Assembly: GCF_024159265.1 (NCBI RefSeq)
Contig: NZ_JAMYWY010000001.1
Location: 4,340,001-4,404,000, forward strand
Length of the DNA stretch: 64,000 bases
Source of the DNA: Paenibacillus sp. 1781tsa1
GTDB lineage: Bacteria > Bacillota > Bacilli > Paenibacillales > Paenibacillaceae
Reading direction: 5' to 3'
Under the pieces are notes generated by a model. That model worked only from the letters and a program-made list of their open reading frames with translations. It had not been told where the DNA came from and did no database searches. Within the stretch, counting starts at the first letter, position 1. Each line of letters starts with the position of its first letter. The position numbers and the translations under genes are program-made. Positions 1,643 through 62,663 of the stretch are shown in pieces.

Positions 1643-2710
1643 CTAATTCAGGGTACCTTCTAAAAGTGCAACAGGATCCGCCATGAATTCTTCAAATGTA
1701 CCTATCGTTCCGTGTTCTTGATGTTCAATGTCTGCATATCCAATCATTTTTTCACTCGGATTCCAGACAATCAGGATATGTGAGTATTGATCGATGTTCG
1801 AGGAAATACGTAGCAGCTTCTGTCTGCCCATTTTCATCTCCACGGTATCGATTAAATGAAAGAATTCTATATACCGGATACCTAATTCATTATCTGGCAA
1901 GTCCATTCTTCTCTTACTGCTAGTTAGAAAATCAATAAGTTGCTGTGGGAGTTTATAAGACTTTAAAGCATGCAATTTGTTGCTCATATCATGAAAATCT
2001 TGAGGTTCATGCCCCTTTAGATATTCAGCCATTTCTTCATTTTTCTGACTGACTGCAATCGTGTACGCCCGCTCTCCATCCTTCTCCTGAATGGTCACAT
2101 CTGCTCCCTGGTCCACCAGATATCGAACCATCTTCATGTTATTAAGTCGTGCAGCTACCGTGAGAGGGGTGGCCTTGTACGGATATACCATGTCCGGTTC
2201 ATTGTAATTGACGTCCACTCCTTGATCCAGCAAGTACTGGACTGTTTTCATATCGTGATCAGCTACCGCTTTGCGTAACGTTTTGCCTCCATATTTACGA
2301 ATATCCAACCCCAGTTCATTCAGCACGGTTATATTCTTTTTGTTACCATAGTAGGCTTCATCATATGCACTGGATTTGACCCGATTAAGGCCATTTAACT
2401 TGGCTCCTTGCTGGTACAGGTATCGCACCATTTCTTCTCCACAATATCTAACCGCCTTCAGGATTGCCGGATTATTTTTGACATTCAGATTAACTCCATG
2501 CTCTACCAACAATTTAATTACTTCCAGTTGATTGCAGATTAAGGCAAGGTCGAGCGGCGTTAATGCTATGTATTTACTGAGCGTAATCTCTTCCTCAAGA
2601 TCCATGCCCTGCTTAACGAATTGCTCTACAGCACCGGTATCTCCCTCATATATTGCCCTGGCATGATCAGGAAGCGTTTCGAACGATCCTTGATTTCCGA
2701 TCTGGAACAA
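1643..2710 (-). CDS. Ankyrin-repeat protein with SUKH-like C-terminal domain
   Basis: 355 residues starting at a TTG with GGGGGA eight to nine bases upstream. Five to six ankyrin repeats run from about residue 20 to 235; TPLDLALICNQLEVIKLLVE and TPLTVAARLNNMKMVRYLVD are the clearest, each followed by the hairpin GADV/GVNL type. The last ~110 residues (IEFFHLIDTVEM, then HILIVWNP, then GTFEEFMADP) resemble a divergent SMI1/KNR4 (SUKH) fold, as used by immunity proteins of polymorphic toxins. No toxin gene is adjacent. Ankyrin domains bind other proteins, so a cytoplasmic binding or immunity role is inferred. The SUKH call is tentative. Confidence 0.75.
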   Translation of the reverse strand: MFQIGNQGSFETLPDHARAIYEGDTGAVEQFVKQGMDLEEEITLSKYIALTPLDLALICNQLEVIKLLVEHGVNLNVKNNPAILKAVRYCGEEMVRYLYQQGAKLNGLNRVKSSAYDEAYYGNKKNITVLNELGLDIRKYGGKTLRKAVADHDMKTVQYLLDQGVDVNYNEPDMVYPYKATPLTVAARLNNMKMVRYLVDQGADVTIQEKDGERAYTIAVSQKNEEMAEYLKGHEPQDFHDMSNKLHALKSYKLPQQLIDFLTSSKRRMDLPDNELGIRYIEFFHLIDTVEMKMGRQKLLRISSNIDQYSHILIVWNPSEKMIGYADIEHQEHGTIGTFEEFMADPVALLEGTLN

Positions 2711-4376: not shown

Positions 4377-5399
4377 TTATGCTAATGCTTCTTCGATGGC
4401 AACCGTGATTGGATACGGACCAGACTCTTGATTCGAGAGCGCAACCAGTTGCAGATCATAGTCTGGATACACGGAAGACATGAACGACACCCCTGGATCA
4501 AACCCCATGACATGAAATTTGAAAATCCCTTCCCCCTTGCGGTCAATCCAGATACCCTGCCCATAGTACTCTTCATCCTCTTGATGGACTTGTGGAGTTA
4601 ATAACTGACGTGTTGTCTCTGCATTCAACAATTGGTGACCCAGCAAAGCCTCCCAGAATCGAATCATGTCTGGTGCCGTAACATAGGCCCCGCCATCTGA
4701 TCCACCTTTGACTGGGATGGAGAATATATTGGTGTTCCAGGAGCCATCTTCATGATCGATATACCCTAAAGCCGTGTTACGCGGAAGCTGATCTGTTACG
4801 AAATAACCGGAGTCCTTCATGCCAATCCTTTTGAAAATGTGCTCTTCCACATAATCTGTAAACGACAGTCCTGAATGCTGTTCCACGATAAGCCCCAGCA
4901 CTATGAAACCCGCATTGTTGTAGTGAAAACGTTCACCCGGAGACGACTTCATCGGCAACTGCTGAAACATGGGCAGAAAGTCACTTAATCGCCGCATCGC
5001 GTAGACGGGTCTGTCTTTCCACAATTCTGAAAAATCCTCCATCACTTCTTCATCGAAATAATCTGGAATACCTGACGTGTGTGTTAACAACTGCTGGATA
5101 GTGATCCCTTCGTCCCACAGTGGAAACTTCACATCCAACACATCCGTAAGCTTGGAATCAGCAGATAACTTACCGGCTTCAATTAGTTGGCATATACTCA
5201 CTGCCGTGAAGATCTTACATCCTGATGCAATTCCAAAGCGTGTGTCCACCTGATTCGCAAGCTCTTCACTGCGATTCGCATAACCACGTTTCATATTCAA
5301 AAGGGTTTTCCCGCCTTGTTGGAGTAATACAACACCCGAAAAATTAACGCGTTCCATAACTTCTTCTACTTTTGTTGTCAGCACTAATACATTTAACAT
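4377..5399 (-). CDS. Serine hydrolase, beta-lactamase family
   Basis: Class-C type serine hydrolase. The nucleophile motif is Ser-Gly-Cys-Lys in FGIASGCKIFTA, the second motif is YNN in FHYNNAGFIVLG, and there is a conserved LLTHTSGIPDYF stretch. I place the start at the ATG at 5399, which has AGGTG about nine bases upstream; a GTG at 5411 would add four residues but has no ribosome site. There is no signal peptide, so it is probably cytoplasmic. The substrate is unknown. Confidence 0.8.
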   Translation of the reverse strand: MLNVLVLTTKVEEVMERVNFSGVVLLQQGGKTLLNMKRGYANRSEELANQVDTRFGIASGCKIFTAVSICQLIEAGKLSADSKLTDVLDVKFPLWDEGITIQQLLTHTSGIPDYFDEEVMEDFSELWKDRPVYAMRRLSDFLPMFQQLPMKSSPGERFHYNNAGFIVLGLIVEQHSGLSFTDYVEEHIFKRIGMKDSGYFVTDQLPRNTALGYIDHEDGSWNTNIFSIPVKGGSDGGAYVTAPDMIRFWEALLGHQLLNAETTRQLLTPQVHQEDEEYYGQGIWIDRKGEGIFKFHVMGFDPGVSFMSSVYPDYDLQLVALSNQESGPYPITVAIEEALA

Positions 5400-5485
5400 T
5401 TTGTTGTTCACCTACTTGTCTATGTATTCATTACATTCTCATTCTTAATTCTTCGTCATATCCAGCATACCTGCCAAATTCCCAC

Positions 5486-5531
5486 AAAAAAGAAGGGCTA
5501 CTCCCTTATAAAAGGAAATAACCCTTCTTTC
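5486..5531 (-). terminator. Terminator of the tetR-type gene
   Basis: Nine-base stem AAAGAAGGG/CCCTTCTTT with an inner CTCCCTTATAAAAGGAAAT loop. On the minus strand it ends in six T. It lies just after the TetR-family gene. Confidence 0.8.
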
Positions 5532-5544
5532 ATACAAGATAAGA

Positions 5545-6138
5545 CTAAGTTAAACACAGCATGCTCAAATGTTGTTCAATCACTTGTTCCACTCGGTTTA
5601 CTGTAAGTCTATCAGGCTGCATTAACATATGAATGGCGAGTCCATCCACAAGAGCATATAACTTCTCTATCTCCATCTCGACATCCAGATCAGGAGGTGT
5701 CATGCCTTGGCTCTGCAACTCCTGTATTACCCACTGAACAGATCGATACATCCCCTGATGCATCTCGTCACTTAACTTTTTTAATTCGGGGTACACCAAT
5801 AATTTAGCTGTAAACGAAAACCAGACCTCCATTTCCATCATTCTATCTTCGTCCAAGGGGAGAAATTGCAAGAGCAGATTCTTCATATCCTGCAGGACAG
5901 ATCCGCTCATCTGTAACGCCTCCACCCTTTTCTGTACCCTTTCTGCAAAAAGATTCATGCAAAAGGTGAACAATTCGGCCTGTGTGGCAAAATAATGACG
6001 CATGGAACCTACAGATAGTCCTGCTTCCTTTGCTATATTCCGAACTGTAGCATGCTCCAGTCCATGCTCTTGAATGACCCGGATTGCTGCATCAGCAACG
6101 ATTTTCCTCTGAGCTTCATGATCTACGATTTTTGGCAT
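5545..6138 (-). CDS. TetR-family transcriptional repressor
   Basis: About 197 residues from the ATG at 6138 (MPKIVDHEAQRK); a GTG at 6153 is possible. The N-terminal helix-turn-helix is clear: TVRNIAKEAGLSVGSMRHYF, with the Tyr-Phe that ends TetR recognition helices. The C-terminal ligand and dimerisation domain resembles the BetI/TetR_C_6-like type. It is divergent from the alpha/beta-hydrolase gene at 6248 with a 109-base gap containing a pair of near-identical direct repeats, so it most likely represses itself and that hydrolase. Confidence 0.88.
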   Translation of the reverse strand: MPKIVDHEAQRKIVADAAIRVIQEHGLEHATVRNIAKEAGLSVGSMRHYFATQAELFTFCMNLFAERVQKRVEALQMSGSVLQDMKNLLLQFLPLDEDRMMEMEVWFSFTAKLLVYPELKKLSDEMHQGMYRSVQWVIQELQSQGMTPPDLDVEMEIEKLYALVDGLAIHMLMQPDRLTVNRVEQVIEQHLSMLCLT

Positions 6139-40013: not shown

Positions 40014-40320
40014 TTACTTATGAAGTGTACTGCACCCTGCTAGGCGTTCACATATGTAATCTTCCAGCCGGCTCTCCTGTTCAAATGCCCCCACCAACTT
40101 GCTGATATACAATCTGCGACTTGAATCATCAGGCATTCCATAGGTCATCTTTGTATCAAAACGCCGCCATATGGCATGATCCAGTTGGGTTTCCAGATTC
40201 GTTGCAGCCACCAAAATACTGTCCCCATCGAATCTCACGAGAACCAATGGCAGATCAAGGCGCTCCGCCAGATGTGATGCCGTTAATGTTTTGCTGCCTT
40301 TTTTGCAAATATAACCACAG
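40014..40320 (-). pseudogene. Internally deleted AAA+ ATPase remnant
   Basis: The open frame reads from about 40320: KKGSKTLTASHLAERLDLPL matches the Walker A segment of AAA+ proteins (consensus GPPGTGKT, here degenerate), followed by VLVRFDGD and then directly by SILVAATNLETQLDHAIWRRFD, the sensor-1 and arginine-finger region. The Walker B part (about 60-70 residues) between them is missing, and the N-terminus is absent. The surviving C-terminal frame is intact to a TAA. No start with a ribosome site. Decayed gene fragment rather than a working protein. Confidence 0.7.
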
Positions 40321-40528: not shown

Positions 40529-40681
40529 ATGGCAAAAGACGTATTGTGTGAAGTTAATTCCTGTCGTCACTGGGCTCAAGAGAACAAATGTAACGCTTCT
40601 TCGATCTACATCGTGAGCCACAGTTCCAAAGAAGCAAGTCAGTCTGCTGAAACAGACTGTAAGACTTTTGAAGTAAAATAA
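40529..40681 (+). CDS. DUF1540 Cys-containing miniprotein
   Basis: 50 residues; ATG at 40529 with GTGAGG upstream. Cysteines at 7, 12, 21 and 44 (VLCEVNSCRHWAQENKC ... DCK) are the DUF1540 pattern, likely one small metal site. Such proteins are common in Bacillales and clostridia, with unknown function, and are often sporulation-linked. Its own terminator follows. Confidence 0.8.
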   Translation: MAKDVLCEVNSCRHWAQENKCNASSIYIVSHSSKEASQSAETDCKTFEVK

Positions 40682-40703
40682 GTAATTTCATGTGATCCAC
40701 TTG

Positions 40704-40730
40704 AAGGAACCCTTACCGGTTCCTTTTTTC
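40704..40730 (+). terminator. Terminator of the DUF1540 gene
   Basis: AAGGAACC, CTTACC loop, GGTTCCTT, then T run. 22 bases after the stop codon. Confidence 0.85.
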
Positions 40731-40750: not shown

Positions 40751-40765
40751 TGATAATTATTATCA
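40751..40765. promoter_or_regulatory. Fur box of the hpaB-like gene
   Basis: TGATAATTATTATCA: a perfect 7-1-7 Fur box (TGATAAT-N-ATTATCA). It is 121 bases upstream of the HpaB-like start codon. Confidence 0.8.
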
Positions 40766-40885
40766 AGCCCTAATCTACATAAAAATCCTTCTCGCCTCTT
40801 AAATGCACATTGGACAGATCACCTACGTACACTACGTAAGAAATGAGTCTGCCCATGAACGATTAGAACCAAGAGGTGAATAACA

Positions 40886-42343
40886 ATGCCTGTTAAAAGT
40901 GGCACACAGTATCGCGAACGAATTGATGCACAGTCCGTCCCTTGCTGGTACAAAGGTAACCTTATTACTGGAAAACGCTCTGAACATGTAGCATTTGCTG
41001 GTTTAATGGAGACCCAGATGTACATGTATGATCTGCAATCTGATCCTAAATTTGCAGAAACGATGACGTATGCCTCCCCGGCAGACGGCAAACCTGTGGG
41101 CATATCCTTCCTGCCTCCAACCAGTGCCGACGACCTCCGTAAACGACGGGAAGGGATGAATATCTGGGCAAATGTGCATCATGGCTTTCTTGGTCGCTCA
41201 CCCGATTACATGAATACAGCCATAATGTCCTTTTACACAGGTGCCGATCTCCTGAACGAACTGTCTCCGCAATATGCGGAAAATCTCAAAAATTATTATG
41301 CGTACTGCCGTGATCATGATATCACGCTATCCCATGCCTTCATTCAGCCATATGCCAGCAAAATGTCAGGGCAATTGGATGCTACTGAGGATGCTATTGC
41401 CGCAAAGGTCGTGGATCGCACCGAGGAAGGTCTCATTATTAGCGGTGCATTCATGATGGCTACACAAGCTGCCACTTCGGATGAGATTTTTGTCTATCCG
41501 TCACCTTCTCCCGCCCCATTTGATGACGAAAATCCATTTGCATTCTCTTTTGCTGTCCCCAATGATCTCCCAGGAATCAGTCTGGTATGCAGGGATACGT
41601 ACGCTGCCGAATCTCACACCAACTATCCTCTGAGTTCCAGATATGAAGAAATGGACAATATCGTCATCTTTGACCGGGTGCTTGTTCCGCATGAACGAAT
41701 ATTTTTTGCAGGAAGTGAGGAAATGTCCTCGCGTCTCTTCAGTGGCAGCAACTTTCATATTCACGCAGGTCATCAGGTATTGTGTCGTTATATTGCCAAG
41801 ACGGAATTTGTTCTCGGTACAATCCAGCTTCTCACGGATACGCTGGATCTGAATACGGAAGCACATGTTATAGAAAAATCTGCACGTGTGTTCGCAGGTC
41901 TTGAATCGTTAAAAGCATTGGCCTTGGCCGCGGAGGCAGGTGCAATACCAGACGGAAGAGGATTTGTAATACCTGCACCCAAACCATTGATGGCAGCCAA
42001 TCTCCTTTTTCCGAAACTTTATCCTGAGATGATTGAAATTCTGCAGCTCTTGGGTTCGAGCGGGGTGATTATGATCCCTCAGGAAGAAGAGTTTCAATCC
42101 GATATCGCTCCTTCACTGAATATATATCTGAAAGGGAATGATATGGCTTCTCACGAACGCAACGCTCTCTTCCGCCTGATCTGGGAGCTTGGAGCTGGAT
42201 CATTCGGGGGCAGACAGACCCAATTCGAACGATTCTTTTTTGGCAATGTCCTTACGGTATCCAATCGGTTGTACTCTGTCTACAACAAAGATCAGACGAA
42301 TCGTCAGCTCGTTCGTGATTTTCTATCCAACAACAGCCAATAA
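40886..42343 (+). CDS. hpaB: HpaB-type flavin-dependent aromatic monooxygenase
   Basis: 485 residues with AGAGGTGA before the ATG. Features of the 4-hydroxyphenylacetate 3-monooxygenase large subunit family: SHAFIQPYASK, EGLIISGAFMMATQAATSDEIFVYPS (split across the FAD pocket), the VLVPHERIFFAG loop and ERNALFRLIWELGAGSFGGRQ near the end. Such enzymes hydroxylate phenols to catechols with FADH2 from a separate flavin reductase; none is adjacent, though the convergent nitroreductase could supply reduced flavin. A perfect Fur box points to induction by iron starvation, where catechol formation might help iron capture. Substrate is inferred. Confidence 0.88.
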   Translation: MPVKSGTQYRERIDAQSVPCWYKGNLITGKRSEHVAFAGLMETQMYMYDLQSDPKFAETMTYASPADGKPVGISFLPPTSADDLRKRREGMNIWANVHHGFLGRSPDYMNTAIMSFYTGADLLNELSPQYAENLKNYYAYCRDHDITLSHAFIQPYASKMSGQLDATEDAIAAKVVDRTEEGLIISGAFMMATQAATSDEIFVYPSPSPAPFDDENPFAFSFAVPNDLPGISLVCRDTYAAESHTNYPLSSRYEEMDNIVIFDRVLVPHERIFFAGSEEMSSRLFSGSNFHIHAGHQVLCRYIAKTEFVLGTIQLLTDTLDLNTEAHVIEKSARVFAGLESLKALALAAEAGAIPDGRGFVIPAPKPLMAANLLFPKLYPEMIEILQLLGSSGVIMIPQEEEFQSDIAPSLNIYLKGNDMASHERNALFRLIWELGAGSFGGRQTQFERFFFGNVLTVSNRLYSVYNKDQTNRQLVRDFLSNNSQ

Positions 42344-42364
42344 GAGAACTAATGAATTATTTTT

Positions 42365-42931
42365 TTATACCAGATGGTCATAGACCGTCATCAGTTCAGA
42401 GGCTGGTCTGCTTGCATCCATATCCCGCAATGCAGGCTGGTCTCCGTAACCGATATGGAATACACCTAACACCTTCTCTTCAATTGTCAAACCCATCAAA
42501 TTCATAAATACAGGATGTTGTTGATAATCATTGATCTTCCAAACCGCATTCAAACCCTGTTCCGCAGCCAGTATACTAAAGCGTTTGCTCCAGGCTTTGG
42601 CCGGCAGAAGATCATCCTCTCGGGCATTTCTAGGCGCCACGACAACCAGATGGGTAGGGATTGCTTCCGTGTATTGATATGTAGCCCAATCGCCGTAGCG
42701 ATCAGCCAGATGGGGTGGATAGCTCTGTCTGACCGCTTCTAGATAAAGCTGTCGTCCTTCGCCTGCAAACAACATAAACCTCCAAGGTTCTGAACTCATC
42801 ACATATAATGAAGGATCTGCTTCATCAAGCAACTTTCGTATAACCGACTGGGGTACTGGCAACGGACTGAATTCGCAAGTTCCTGCACGTCTTTTGCCGC
42901 TGCTTATATCGTGACTTAGACCGGTAGACAT
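42365..42931 (-). CDS. Nitroreductase-family flavoprotein
   Basis: 188 residues; GAGGGGAAG before the ATG. Nitroreductase signatures: an N-terminal SSGKRRAGTCEFSPLPVPQ (the R-R-S/T-x-R region), ADPSLYVMSSEPWRFMLF and C-terminal LTIEEKVLGVFHIGYGDQP. FMN-binding, NAD(P)H-dependent. Last gene of a flavodoxin operon under a Fur box. Confidence 0.85.
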   Translation of the reverse strand: MSTGLSHDISSGKRRAGTCEFSPLPVPQSVIRKLLDEADPSLYVMSSEPWRFMLFAGEGRQLYLEAVRQSYPPHLADRYGDWATYQYTEAIPTHLVVVAPRNAREDDLLPAKAWSKRFSILAAEQGLNAVWKINDYQQHPVFMNLMGLTIEEKVLGVFHIGYGDQPALRDMDASRPASELMTVYDHLV

Positions 42932-42983
42932 GGCAACTTCCCCTCCTCTATCTGCATGATATATCGTTCTCCTTCAACTGTCT

Positions 42984-43790
42984 TCACATCAACCATGTTT
43001 TCTTCGGTTCAATGGCTTCCGTTCTCCAGCGGTCTACCTCTTCGTGTATGCGCGCTTTATCACGCGTCGTAAATTCTTCTGACTCCACCACTTCCGCTTG
43101 CGGCATGCTATCACGTATCAAGTGAATGTAGTCCATGGAACGAATCAGAGACTGGCGTCCAGGGATGTACCTAATTTTGCGTCCTTCCAACAAGCAGTAT
43201 ATCTCAATCATCCCCGGTAATTTTCCGAAGGCTTCCCAGCAGAATGCACTGGCCATATGCTGAAACGCCTCAACTACGTTCGGATCATGGACAACCATAT
43301 ATTTCTGAATAAGTAGCGAATCCCAGCCTTCTGGTTGCCAGACGGCCTGAAATATCATCGACAAATGCATGGATAATGAAGGTAACTCCGTTCTCCACTG
43401 TTCAAAAAGAATGGCTGGATGCTTCAGATCATCGTTCATTGCAATGGCGAGTGACAATTCATCCGTGATCTTGCTCTTCACATCCCAGTAATGGAGAACA
43501 GATTCGAAACCATCCGCCTTTCTGGGCCACCATTTTTCAAGTAAATACTGTACGGGTACCTCTTTGCGAACATCGGGGTCGAGACTGTAAAAGGCATTGA
43601 CCGCATGGCTCACCGCATATTGTACACGGTGCCTCCATTGCAGTGGAGGACGCTGCTCAGACACTGGTTCAGGGCGGATGAATCGGTGTGGGCTGCGCAG
43701 CATTTCTTCCAATCTGTAATCTTCAAGCAGACGTCCAGGAAGGTCATTCCTTCCGACTGGCATCGCTGCCTGAACATTATGTCTTAACAT
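42984..43790 (-). CDS. Unrecognised protein in the Fur-controlled flavodoxin operon
   Basis: 268 residues. Starts five bases after the flavodoxin stop, so clearly co-transcribed. DYRLEEMLRSPHRFI at the N-terminus, WRHRVQYAVSHAVNAFYSL and LLIQKYMVVHDPNVVEAFQHMASAFCWEAFGKLPGMIEIYCLLEGRK (shown in pieces) remind me of PD-(D/E)XK/Cas4-like nucleases, but I cannot place a complete catalytic Asp/Glu-x-Lys set, so the resemblance is weak. No signal or membrane segment. Function unknown; the iron-starvation setting is the main clue. Confidence 0.55.
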   Translation of the reverse strand: MLRHNVQAAMPVGRNDLPGRLLEDYRLEEMLRSPHRFIRPEPVSEQRPPLQWRHRVQYAVSHAVNAFYSLDPDVRKEVPVQYLLEKWWPRKADGFESVLHYWDVKSKITDELSLAIAMNDDLKHPAILFEQWRTELPSLSMHLSMIFQAVWQPEGWDSLLIQKYMVVHDPNVVEAFQHMASAFCWEAFGKLPGMIEIYCLLEGRKIRYIPGRQSLIRSMDYIHLIRDSMPQAEVVESEEFTTRDKARIHEEVDRWRTEAIEPKKTWLM

Positions 43791-43795
43791 GATCT

Positions 43796-44248
43796 TTAGG
43801 ATACCTGTAATCCGGCAGCAGCGAAGCGTTTGCCAAAGTCACGGCATGTTTCTTTCTCCTGCTCAAGCGGACTATATTCAATTTTCAACATCTCTGGAGA
43901 TACCTCCGCCCCACGTTCTTGCAGCTTGGCAGCCGCGAGATCAACTGCACCACAGAACTGCTCATACGAGGTGTCACCACTACCAAACACCGCGGCTCTC
44001 TTACCACTCAGGTCAAGCTCATCCAGCTCCTCATAGAAATCAAGGAATTCATCTGGCAACTCCCCGTCTCCCCAGGTGTACACACCGATCATGAATCCGT
44101 CATAGTCCAATACATCAGATGCATTACAATCCGTAACGGATTTTAGGTCTGCCTCGTGGCCTCCCTGTGTAATTCCTTCCACAATCAGTTCTGCAATTTC
44201 TTCTGTATTTCCCGTCATGCTCGCATAAGCCACTAACAATTTAGCCAT
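43796..44248 (-). CDS. Flavodoxin
   Basis: 150 residues. FMN phosphate loop is AYASMTGNTEEIAE; the 50s/90s loops are in VYTWGDGELPDEF and VFGSGDTSYEQFCG. Short-chain flavodoxins replace ferredoxin when iron is scarce, consistent with the perfect Fur box about 80 bases upstream. First gene of the operon with the 268-residue protein and the nitroreductase. Confidence 0.95.
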   Translation of the reverse strand: MAKLLVAYASMTGNTEEIAELIVEGITQGGHEADLKSVTDCNASDVLDYDGFMIGVYTWGDGELPDEFLDFYEELDELDLSGKRAAVFGSGDTSYEQFCGAVDLAAAKLQERGAEVSPEMLKIEYSPLEQEKETCRDFGKRFAAAGLQVS

Positions 44249-44330
44249 CTATGTTTCCCTCACTTTAGTTGGATCATGTAATATTCTCTCTATGAAGAAA
44301 GAATGAATTTTGGATTAACAAAATCATATG

Positions 44331-44350
44331 TGATAATGATTATCATTGTC
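44331..44350. promoter_or_regulatory. Fur box of the flavodoxin operon
   Basis: TGATAATGATTATCA (44331-44345), perfect 7-1-7, continuing into TTGTC so a second overlapping Fur dimer site is possible. Confidence 0.85.
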
Positions 44351-44543
44351 AAATTAAATTTTTGGTTATCTTTGTTTTTCAGTATATGGCACACATTGAA
44401 TTTCAACACAGCTAAACATCCTTCACCCTTTTATGATCAGATATAATAACTTCCTCCAATGATCCCGCCCCCCAACTGGCGTACAAGCCCTTTTTTGTTG
44501 TACAATAGTATCCAAATGACTTTTGAAGGATGGATAAATCATT

Positions 44544-62544: not shown

Positions 62545-62591
62545 TCTGTATGTACCCCCTATAGGTCGTTAATATATGACAATGTCTAATC

Positions 62592-62610
62592 AATAATAAT
62601 TATCATTATC
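62592..62610. promoter_or_regulatory. Fur box of the siderophore-binding gene
   Basis: AATAATAATTATCATTATC matches the 19-base Fur consensus GATAATGATAATCATTATC at 16 of 19 positions, 48 bases upstream of the start codon. Confidence 0.75.
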
Positions 62611-62663
62611 ACTAAGATATAGGAGTAGTATAATCAAATATGTTCAGGCATGATATTGACTAT

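Follow-up and report, generated by a model that had tools for sequence, protein, structure and literature searches.

Two convergent units with predicted Fur control in Paenibacillus sp. 1781tsa1 and a protein family of predicted nuclease-like fold behind low-iron flavodoxins of Bacilli

Two exact Fur boxes in the genome of the soil bacterium Paenibacillus sp. 1781tsa1 enclose four genes, encoding an HpaB-type monooxygenase, a nitroreductase-family protein, a flavodoxin and a 268-residue protein. They lie in a stretch of 64,000 nucleotides (positions 4340001-4404000 of contig C1; below, the window) of the 7.08 Mb genome. The initial annotation combined flavin reductase, electron carrier and hydroxylase into one system that could form catechols when iron is low. 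Do these genes work together, and what is the 268-residue protein? The explanation that we favour, with moderate confidence, is that the locus consists of two Fur-repressed units, one of which carries a member of a Bacilli family of pseudonuclease-like proteins encoded behind a low-iron flavodoxin. Retrieved loci and genomes are denoted below by L and G numbers, respectively.

Fur boxes and gene order

On the minus strand, a Fur box is followed by the flavodoxin gene, the gene of the 268-residue protein and the nitroreductase gene, with gaps of 5 bp and 52 bp between the genes. On the plus strand, hpaB is the only gene behind the other box, and the two units are convergent (Table 1). The gene content is that of the initial annotation. 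Its description of the boxes as facing each other fits the transcription units and not the boxes, since the latter are palindromic. The closest named relatives belong to the Paenibacillus amylolyticus/xylanexedens group; the 268-residue protein of Paenibacillus sp. PAMC 26794 is 97% identical to that of the window. The whole gene order is kept in all 25 loci of the amylolyticus group (L016-L040), including the nitroreductase gene, which is the last gene of the minus-strand unit.

Table 1. Features of the two convergent units and their surroundings (window coordinates)
Feature	Position	Strand	Remarks
HpaB-type FAD-dependent phenol ortho-hydroxylase (predicted)	40886..42343	+	485 aa; Pfam HpaB_N 1.9e-78, HpaB 1.3e-47
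Nitroreductase-family protein	42365..42931	-	188 aa; Pfam Nitroreductase 2.9e-7; top PDB match 2i7h, 1.9e-17
268-aa protein, predicted inactive RecB/Cas4-like PD-(D/E)XK fold, without Fe-S cysteines	42984..43790	-	
Short-chain flavodoxin	43796..44248	-	150 aa; Pfam Flavodoxin_1 1.1e-34; NCBIfam flavodoxin models above cut-off
hpaB Fur box, exact 7-1-7, 120 nt 5' of the gene	40751..40765	none	consensus match
Flavodoxin Fur box, exact 7-1-7, 82 nt 5' of the gene start	44331..44345	none	consensus match
Second Fur site, two mismatches, overlapping the flavodoxin box	44337-44351		consensus match
Promoter-like TTGACA-18-TATGAT, overlapping the flavodoxin Fur box	44323..44352	-	11/12; consensus match only
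Terminator-like hairpin 3' of the DUF1540 gene, between this gene and the hpaB unit	40703..40726	+	consensus match only

Both boxes, TGATAATTATTATCA before hpaB and TGATAATGATTATCA before the flavodoxin gene, match the 7-1-7 consensus exactly, as had been claimed. The genome contains nine perfect sites and 31 sites with at most one mismatch, versus one site for the pattern read backwards. Sites with up to three mismatches in the window are not more frequent than expected by chance (eight versus a mean of 5.87; eight was reached by 28 of 100 shuffles), and thus weight was given to perfect sites only. Overlapping Fur-like sites with two to three mismatches were also observed at 62591-62611.

The flavodoxin box is perfect in all 25 loci of the amylolyticus group and overlaps a strong sigma-70-type match (11/12) on the correct strand. 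The hpaB box is perfect in 23 of these loci. The leader between this box and hpaB (40766-40886) is conserved across 13 aligned loci, with blocks GCACA, ACGTA and TGC.CATGA. A structured RNA in the leader was considered and rejected: two-sided changes occur in none of the 11 predicted pairs, and the sole Rfam match is at chance level.

The position and conservation of the boxes support Fur control of both units; this part of the original interpretation stands. We infer that the control is repression. The two units would be separate and jointly switched on at low iron. In the minus-strand unit, the flavodoxin, an iron-free electron carrier, would then replace ferredoxin, accompanied by the 268-residue protein.

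The family of the 268-residue protein

This protein was initially called unrecognised. Indeed, neither Pfam nor NCBIfam contains a model that matches it, and a relative adjoining a flavodoxin gene on a plasmid of Paenibacillus sp. IHB B 3084 is annotated in the public record as a hypothetical protein; a nuclease-like fold can, however, be predicted from a structural model, as described below. The family was detected in 38 of 59 relatives and, counting a few genomes whose match is weak or incomplete, in 58 of 398 Bacilli genomes. In a phylum sample, whose non-Bacilli share is not fully listed, the family is present in seven of 398 genomes, all of them Paenibacillaceae. Judging by these searches, it is so far found only in Bacilli.

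All 36 loci compared have a Fur box with at most two mismatches in the 1250 bp preceding the family gene, and 32 of them have one with at most one mismatch. In control windows from the same loci (n = 4563) the corresponding rates are 4.1% and 3.5%. The 36 loci are distinct lineages picked among the retrieved loci, six of them from the amylolyticus group, and are related by descent; the gene start in L129 was set roughly for this count. Family matches occur in 23 genomes outside Paenibacillaceae, of which 15 were examined. The genomes left out have good matches (G123, G353) or weak or partial ones (G069, G113, G128, G142, G373, G408).

A flavodoxin gene lies directly 5' of the family gene in 28 of 35 loci (L129 was left out of this count). 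The other seven are L118, L119, L121, L122, L123, L125 and L126. The Fur box is located 45-231 bp before the family gene in L118, L121, L122, L123 and L126, and in L125 a box with two mismatches is 395 bp away. In L119 (4829-6672, minus strand) the family gene, with no flavodoxin gene before it, overlaps the end of a gene that by eye resembles FNR/thioredoxin reductases. The Fur box, a perfect one, is 1166 bp upstream, and a divergent siderophore-type ABC transporter, also recognized by eye, lies alongside.

Some loci have additional features. The family copy at 5019-5933 (minus strand) of L125 is a shorter second copy in G411 and adjoins a DUF2325-like gene (by eye); an annotated pair of DUF2325 and hypothetical genes is found on an Anoxybacillus plasmid. 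In L139 a copy behind a YkuN-like flavodoxin gene (1893-2528, plus strand) ends early and the profile match runs past stops, so that the gene may be broken. In L079 (3253-5288, minus strand) a flavodoxin, a relative of the 268-residue protein and a beta-propeller-like protein are encoded in a row; the latter has weak propeller-type matches and no match with the YkuO profile.

The slot behind a Fur-box flavodoxin is the one occupied by ykuO in ykuNOP of Bacillus subtilis, where an accessory gene also comes straight after a short-chain flavodoxin gene of the Fur regulon (for the regulon, excerpts of PMC3896406 and PMC4409812). Nevertheless, the identification of the 268-residue protein as YkuO has next to no chance of being correct and was rejected. 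In relatives of B. subtilis (L134-L138, located with a YkuN sequence; the comparison was made on the genes of these relatives) the gene between two flavodoxin genes encodes a 297-residue BNR-repeat-like protein, with a weak match to Pfam BNR, that is dissimilar to the 268-residue protein (hmmsearch --max, E > 6). Thus, two unrelated proteins occupy the same slot, and, unlike the Paenibacillus unit, ykuNOP continues with a second flavodoxin gene. In a 398-genome sample of the same kind, the YkuO profile matched 12 genomes, six of them strongly, five weakly and G393 by a fragment. None of the six is among the 58 genomes with the family, and in G393 the YkuO fragment and the family member are at separate loci. 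In the available part of a study of B. anthracis Sterne under iron starvation, a flavodoxin gene and an adjacent hypothetical gene are reported as induced, as are a second flavodoxin gene and that of a BNR-repeat protein (PMC2742718).

The window protein was modelled with AlphaFold2 on the basis of 15 sequences (pLDDT 78.6, pTM 0.72). Foldseek comparison with PDB yielded 12 matches at E <= 0.001, and every one is a nuclease or helicase-nuclease of the RecB-like PD-(D/E)XK class. The top matches are ACE1 proteins of the Cas4 family (3.9e-6), followed by RecE, AdnA of AdnAB, chain A of AddAB, and MGME1; the TM-scores by query length across the matches are 0.34-0.56. In a second look with VIA, the highest Z-scores were those of AdnA (13.5; 205 residues, rmsd 4.0) and CtACE1 (13.2; 217 residues, 4.4), and further ones were obtained for Cas4 (10.8), AddAB chain A (10.7), 3l0a (10.1) and AddAB chain B (8.8). 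The family is thus predicted from the model to have the RecB-like PD-(D/E)XK fold of Cas4/ACE1, AdnA and AddAB across most of the chain.

Some profile matches in relatives point in the same direction. Pfam PDDEXK_1 matches eight of ten Bacillaceae-type relatives at E <= 0.013, two of them (L118, L119) above the gathering score; it does not match the window protein, L115 or L126. Weak matches to Cas4 models fall mostly in the C-terminal cysteine region of relatives. With the NCBIfam cas4 model (cut-off 65 bits) the best relative scored 18.2 bits and the window protein had no match. A weak PHROGs match to "CRISPR/Cas system associated" was seen in three of 28 members. A role in defence was considered and rejected: PADLOC gave weak matches only, Cas4 foremost (best E 2.9e-4), and none for the window protein.

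Judging by strand order and the weak Cas4 alignment, the (D/E)xK position of the window protein is Ile161-Gln162-Lys163, and the same alignment (E 0.0088, probability 4.6%) aligns the Gln148 column with the catalytic aspartate. Among 28 aligned members the acid of (D/E)xK is never present, whereas Lys163 is absolutely conserved. The column of the metal-binding aspartate contains glutamine in 21 members, aspartate, glutamate and histidine in two each, and proline in one. His62 is retained in 18 of 28 members. Loss of catalysis is predicted for the family on this basis.

One N-terminal cysteine and a C-terminal CX2CX5C motif are present in eight of 36 members (L114, L116-L120, L127, L128), all of them inside the 16-row non-Paenibacillaceae group, while the window protein lacks these cysteines. 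A similar arrangement holds the Fe-S cluster of Cas4 and AddB (excerpts of PMC3466216). Since Cas4 and AddB share the pattern, its loss rather than gain is inferred. The tree requires at least three changes of this trait (3-4 in bootstraps). Repeated loss is therefore likely, but not proven, as the well-supported branches alone force just one change. The metal of the four-cysteine members could differ from Fe-S, as a zinc-bound relative, 3L0A, is reported in the same excerpts.

Compared with Cas4, solo-Cas4 and the Argonaute-associated Cas4 proteins called ACE1, the family thus has the predicted fold and, in some members, the cysteines. It differs in the absence of the (D/E)xK acid and in its location in Fur-linked flavodoxin operons. 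The available part of a Cas4 survey describes the catalytic motifs and four cysteines as family-wide and mentions one inactivated Cas4-like derivative, from a virus of archaea (PMC5704561). The nuclease domains of AddAB and AdnA share the predicted fold and, with some relatives of the 268-residue protein, the staple cysteines. In contrast to them, this protein stands alone, without a helicase, and has no useful match to an AddB profile.

We suggest that the family was derived from Cas4/AddB-type RecB-like nucleases with loss of the metal-binding acids. Having lost them, the protein most likely does not cut any more, and it may instead bind nucleic acid or a protein partner within the low-iron programme.

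HpaB and its flavin supply

HpaB of the window matches Thermus thermophilus HpaB, a 4-hydroxyphenylacetate 3-monooxygenase (PDB 2yyg), over the full length (E 9.4e-104). Residues R104, Y108 and H150 correspond to R100, Y104 and H142 of the latter, and Ser197 is kept; Thr198, of the carboxylate site, is replaced by proline. Excerpts of PMC10537072 describe roles of the Arg/Tyr/His triad in phenol binding, and with these residues retained, conversion of a phenol to a catechol at low iron could still take place. However, the score against TIGR02309 is below the equivalog cut-off (428.7 versus 480.2 bits), and thus no substrate is assigned. Further differences from the T. thermophilus protein are the upstream Fur box and the lack of an HpaD gene above cut-off. 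Another catechol-chemistry enzyme under Fur is the catechol dioxygenase of B. subtilis catDE (excerpts of PMC6212828); it is a ring-cleaving iron enzyme, whereas HpaB is a flavin hydroxylase.

In two deeper Paenibacillus loci (L077 and L081) hpaB is 55 and 56% identical to that of the window and convergent with the pair of flavodoxin and 268-residue genes. No nitroreductase gene was found in the retrieved stretches, and the 400 bp preceding hpaB contain no Fur box, the best sites having five and four mismatches. Fur control of hpaB looks local to the amylolyticus group. In a set of 11 loci with the pair, hpaB was found in two and a nitroreductase gene in none; neither was found within 4 kb in another 20 (open frames of at least 70 aa, E <= 1e-4, in both sets). 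By gene content, the nitroreductase is dispensable to the arrangement. It may have been added behind the 268-residue gene in the amylolyticus group, where the HpaB-type phenol hydroxylase would likewise have been brought under Fur.

Two Flavin_Reduct genes are located elsewhere in the genome. One of them, in L043 (C1, about 2809239-2812685), is preceded by a one-mismatch Fur box and a gene of a siderophore-binding-type lipoprotein (by eye). It lies at about 2.8107 Mb, 1.2-1.3 kb behind the box, and its best PDB match is component B of nitrilotriacetate monooxygenase (3.5e-67). This candidate is a likelier partner of HpaB than the nitroreductase. The reduced flavin of HpaB would probably come from a split-barrel flavin reductase of this kind, whose gene lies outside the two units.

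In the genome, no match to isochorismate synthase or HpaD exceeded the curated cut-offs, although weaker ones exist. Thus, with the search confined to these two routes, neither the 2,3-dihydroxybenzoate pathway nor breakdown of homoprotocatechuate was detected.

Competing explanations and neighbouring features

The proposal that nitroreductase, flavodoxin and HpaB jointly form catechols to capture iron agrees with the perfect Fur boxes in common, the conserved neighbourhood in 25 of 25 loci and the retained active-site residues of HpaB. The gene distribution makes it very unlikely and speaks against the joint unit of the initial annotation, as hpaB occurs in L077 and L081 with neither a nitroreductase gene nor a Fur box, while nine of the 11 loci have the pair without hpaB and 20 more have it without either gene. 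The flavin reductase genes elsewhere, one of them behind a Fur box, and the missing isochorismate synthase and HpaD also argue against it. Flavodoxin is a one-electron carrier. HpaB, on the other hand, uses FAD reduced by HpaC (excerpts of PMC10537072). It is possible, though in our view doubtful, that HpaB has no connection to the flavodoxin unit, and that its Fur box keeps the oxygenase off at plentiful iron, sparing reduced flavin or avoiding toxic catechols; this would be compatible with the favoured explanation of the minus-strand unit. The lack of a box in L077 and L081 and its decay in two loci where hpaB matches over the full length (L035, L036) are consistent with such independence. 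The 23 perfect boxes among 25 loci and the convergent placement held even in the distant L077 and L081 are not.

As for the 268-residue protein, an active nuclease with catalytic residues shifted along the chain, repairing DNA under iron stress, would fit the predicted fold, the invariant Lys163 and the frequent His62. Given the (D/E)xK acid in none of 28 members and the aspartate column mostly occupied by glutamine, it is improbable. Another possibility, which we regard as unlikely, is a flavodoxin-coupled pseudonuclease: an ancestor would have carried a Cas4-type Fe-S cluster reducible by flavodoxin or an FNR-like reductase, and the protein would sense the iron or redox state and relay it to nucleic acid. 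With iron starvation recurring, several lineages including Paenibacillus would have given up the cluster while retaining the fold for binding. If true, an Fe-S regulator would have been remodelled inside the Fur regulon to spare iron. The favoured explanation, two Fur-repressed units and a pseudonuclease-like family, has evidence against it as well. The TM-scores of the best Foldseek matches are modest (0.49-0.56, rmsd 8-9.5 A), and the fold comes from a single model of 15 sequences. A search of PDB sequences with the family profile gave a chance match and no nuclease. Profile alignment to 23 Cas4 sequences (those with unbroken frames out of 25 loci; L178 and L184 were dropped) is weak, at the values given above, and that to AddB yields nothing useful, so that the catalytic columns had to be set by topology and the weak alignment. 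The hpaB box has three mismatches in two of 25 loci, and the sole listed promoter-like match at it (10/12) points away from hpaB.

Among the literature matches listed, chiefly open-access and represented in part, no description of the 268-residue family or of a Fur-controlled HpaB was found. Accessory genes of Fur-controlled flavodoxin operons in Bacilli have no assigned function; the predicted fold, the predicted catalytic loss and the tie to Fur boxes across the examined loci make the role of this one testable. A nuclease-derived family induced at low iron, with a putative iron-sulfur site kept by some members and lost by others, would illustrate how iron limitation can reshape iron-dependent proteins in nature. 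The hpaB unit contributes, for one Paenibacillus group, a phenol hydroxylase predicted to be under Fur.

Just 5' of the hpaB unit there is a small DUF1540 gene encoding a cysteine-containing protein (40529-40681, plus strand). In L035 and L036 the DUF1540 match is missing at this place, with hpaB still matching over its full length. On a plasmid of Anoxybacillus amylolyticus a DUF1540 gene is also found near a relative of the 268-residue family. Further upstream, at 40017-40247 on the minus strand, a 77-residue fragment resembles the anti-phage ATPase IteA (profile positions 224-289 of 367; 49.5 bits versus a cut-off of 510) and is probably a gene remnant.

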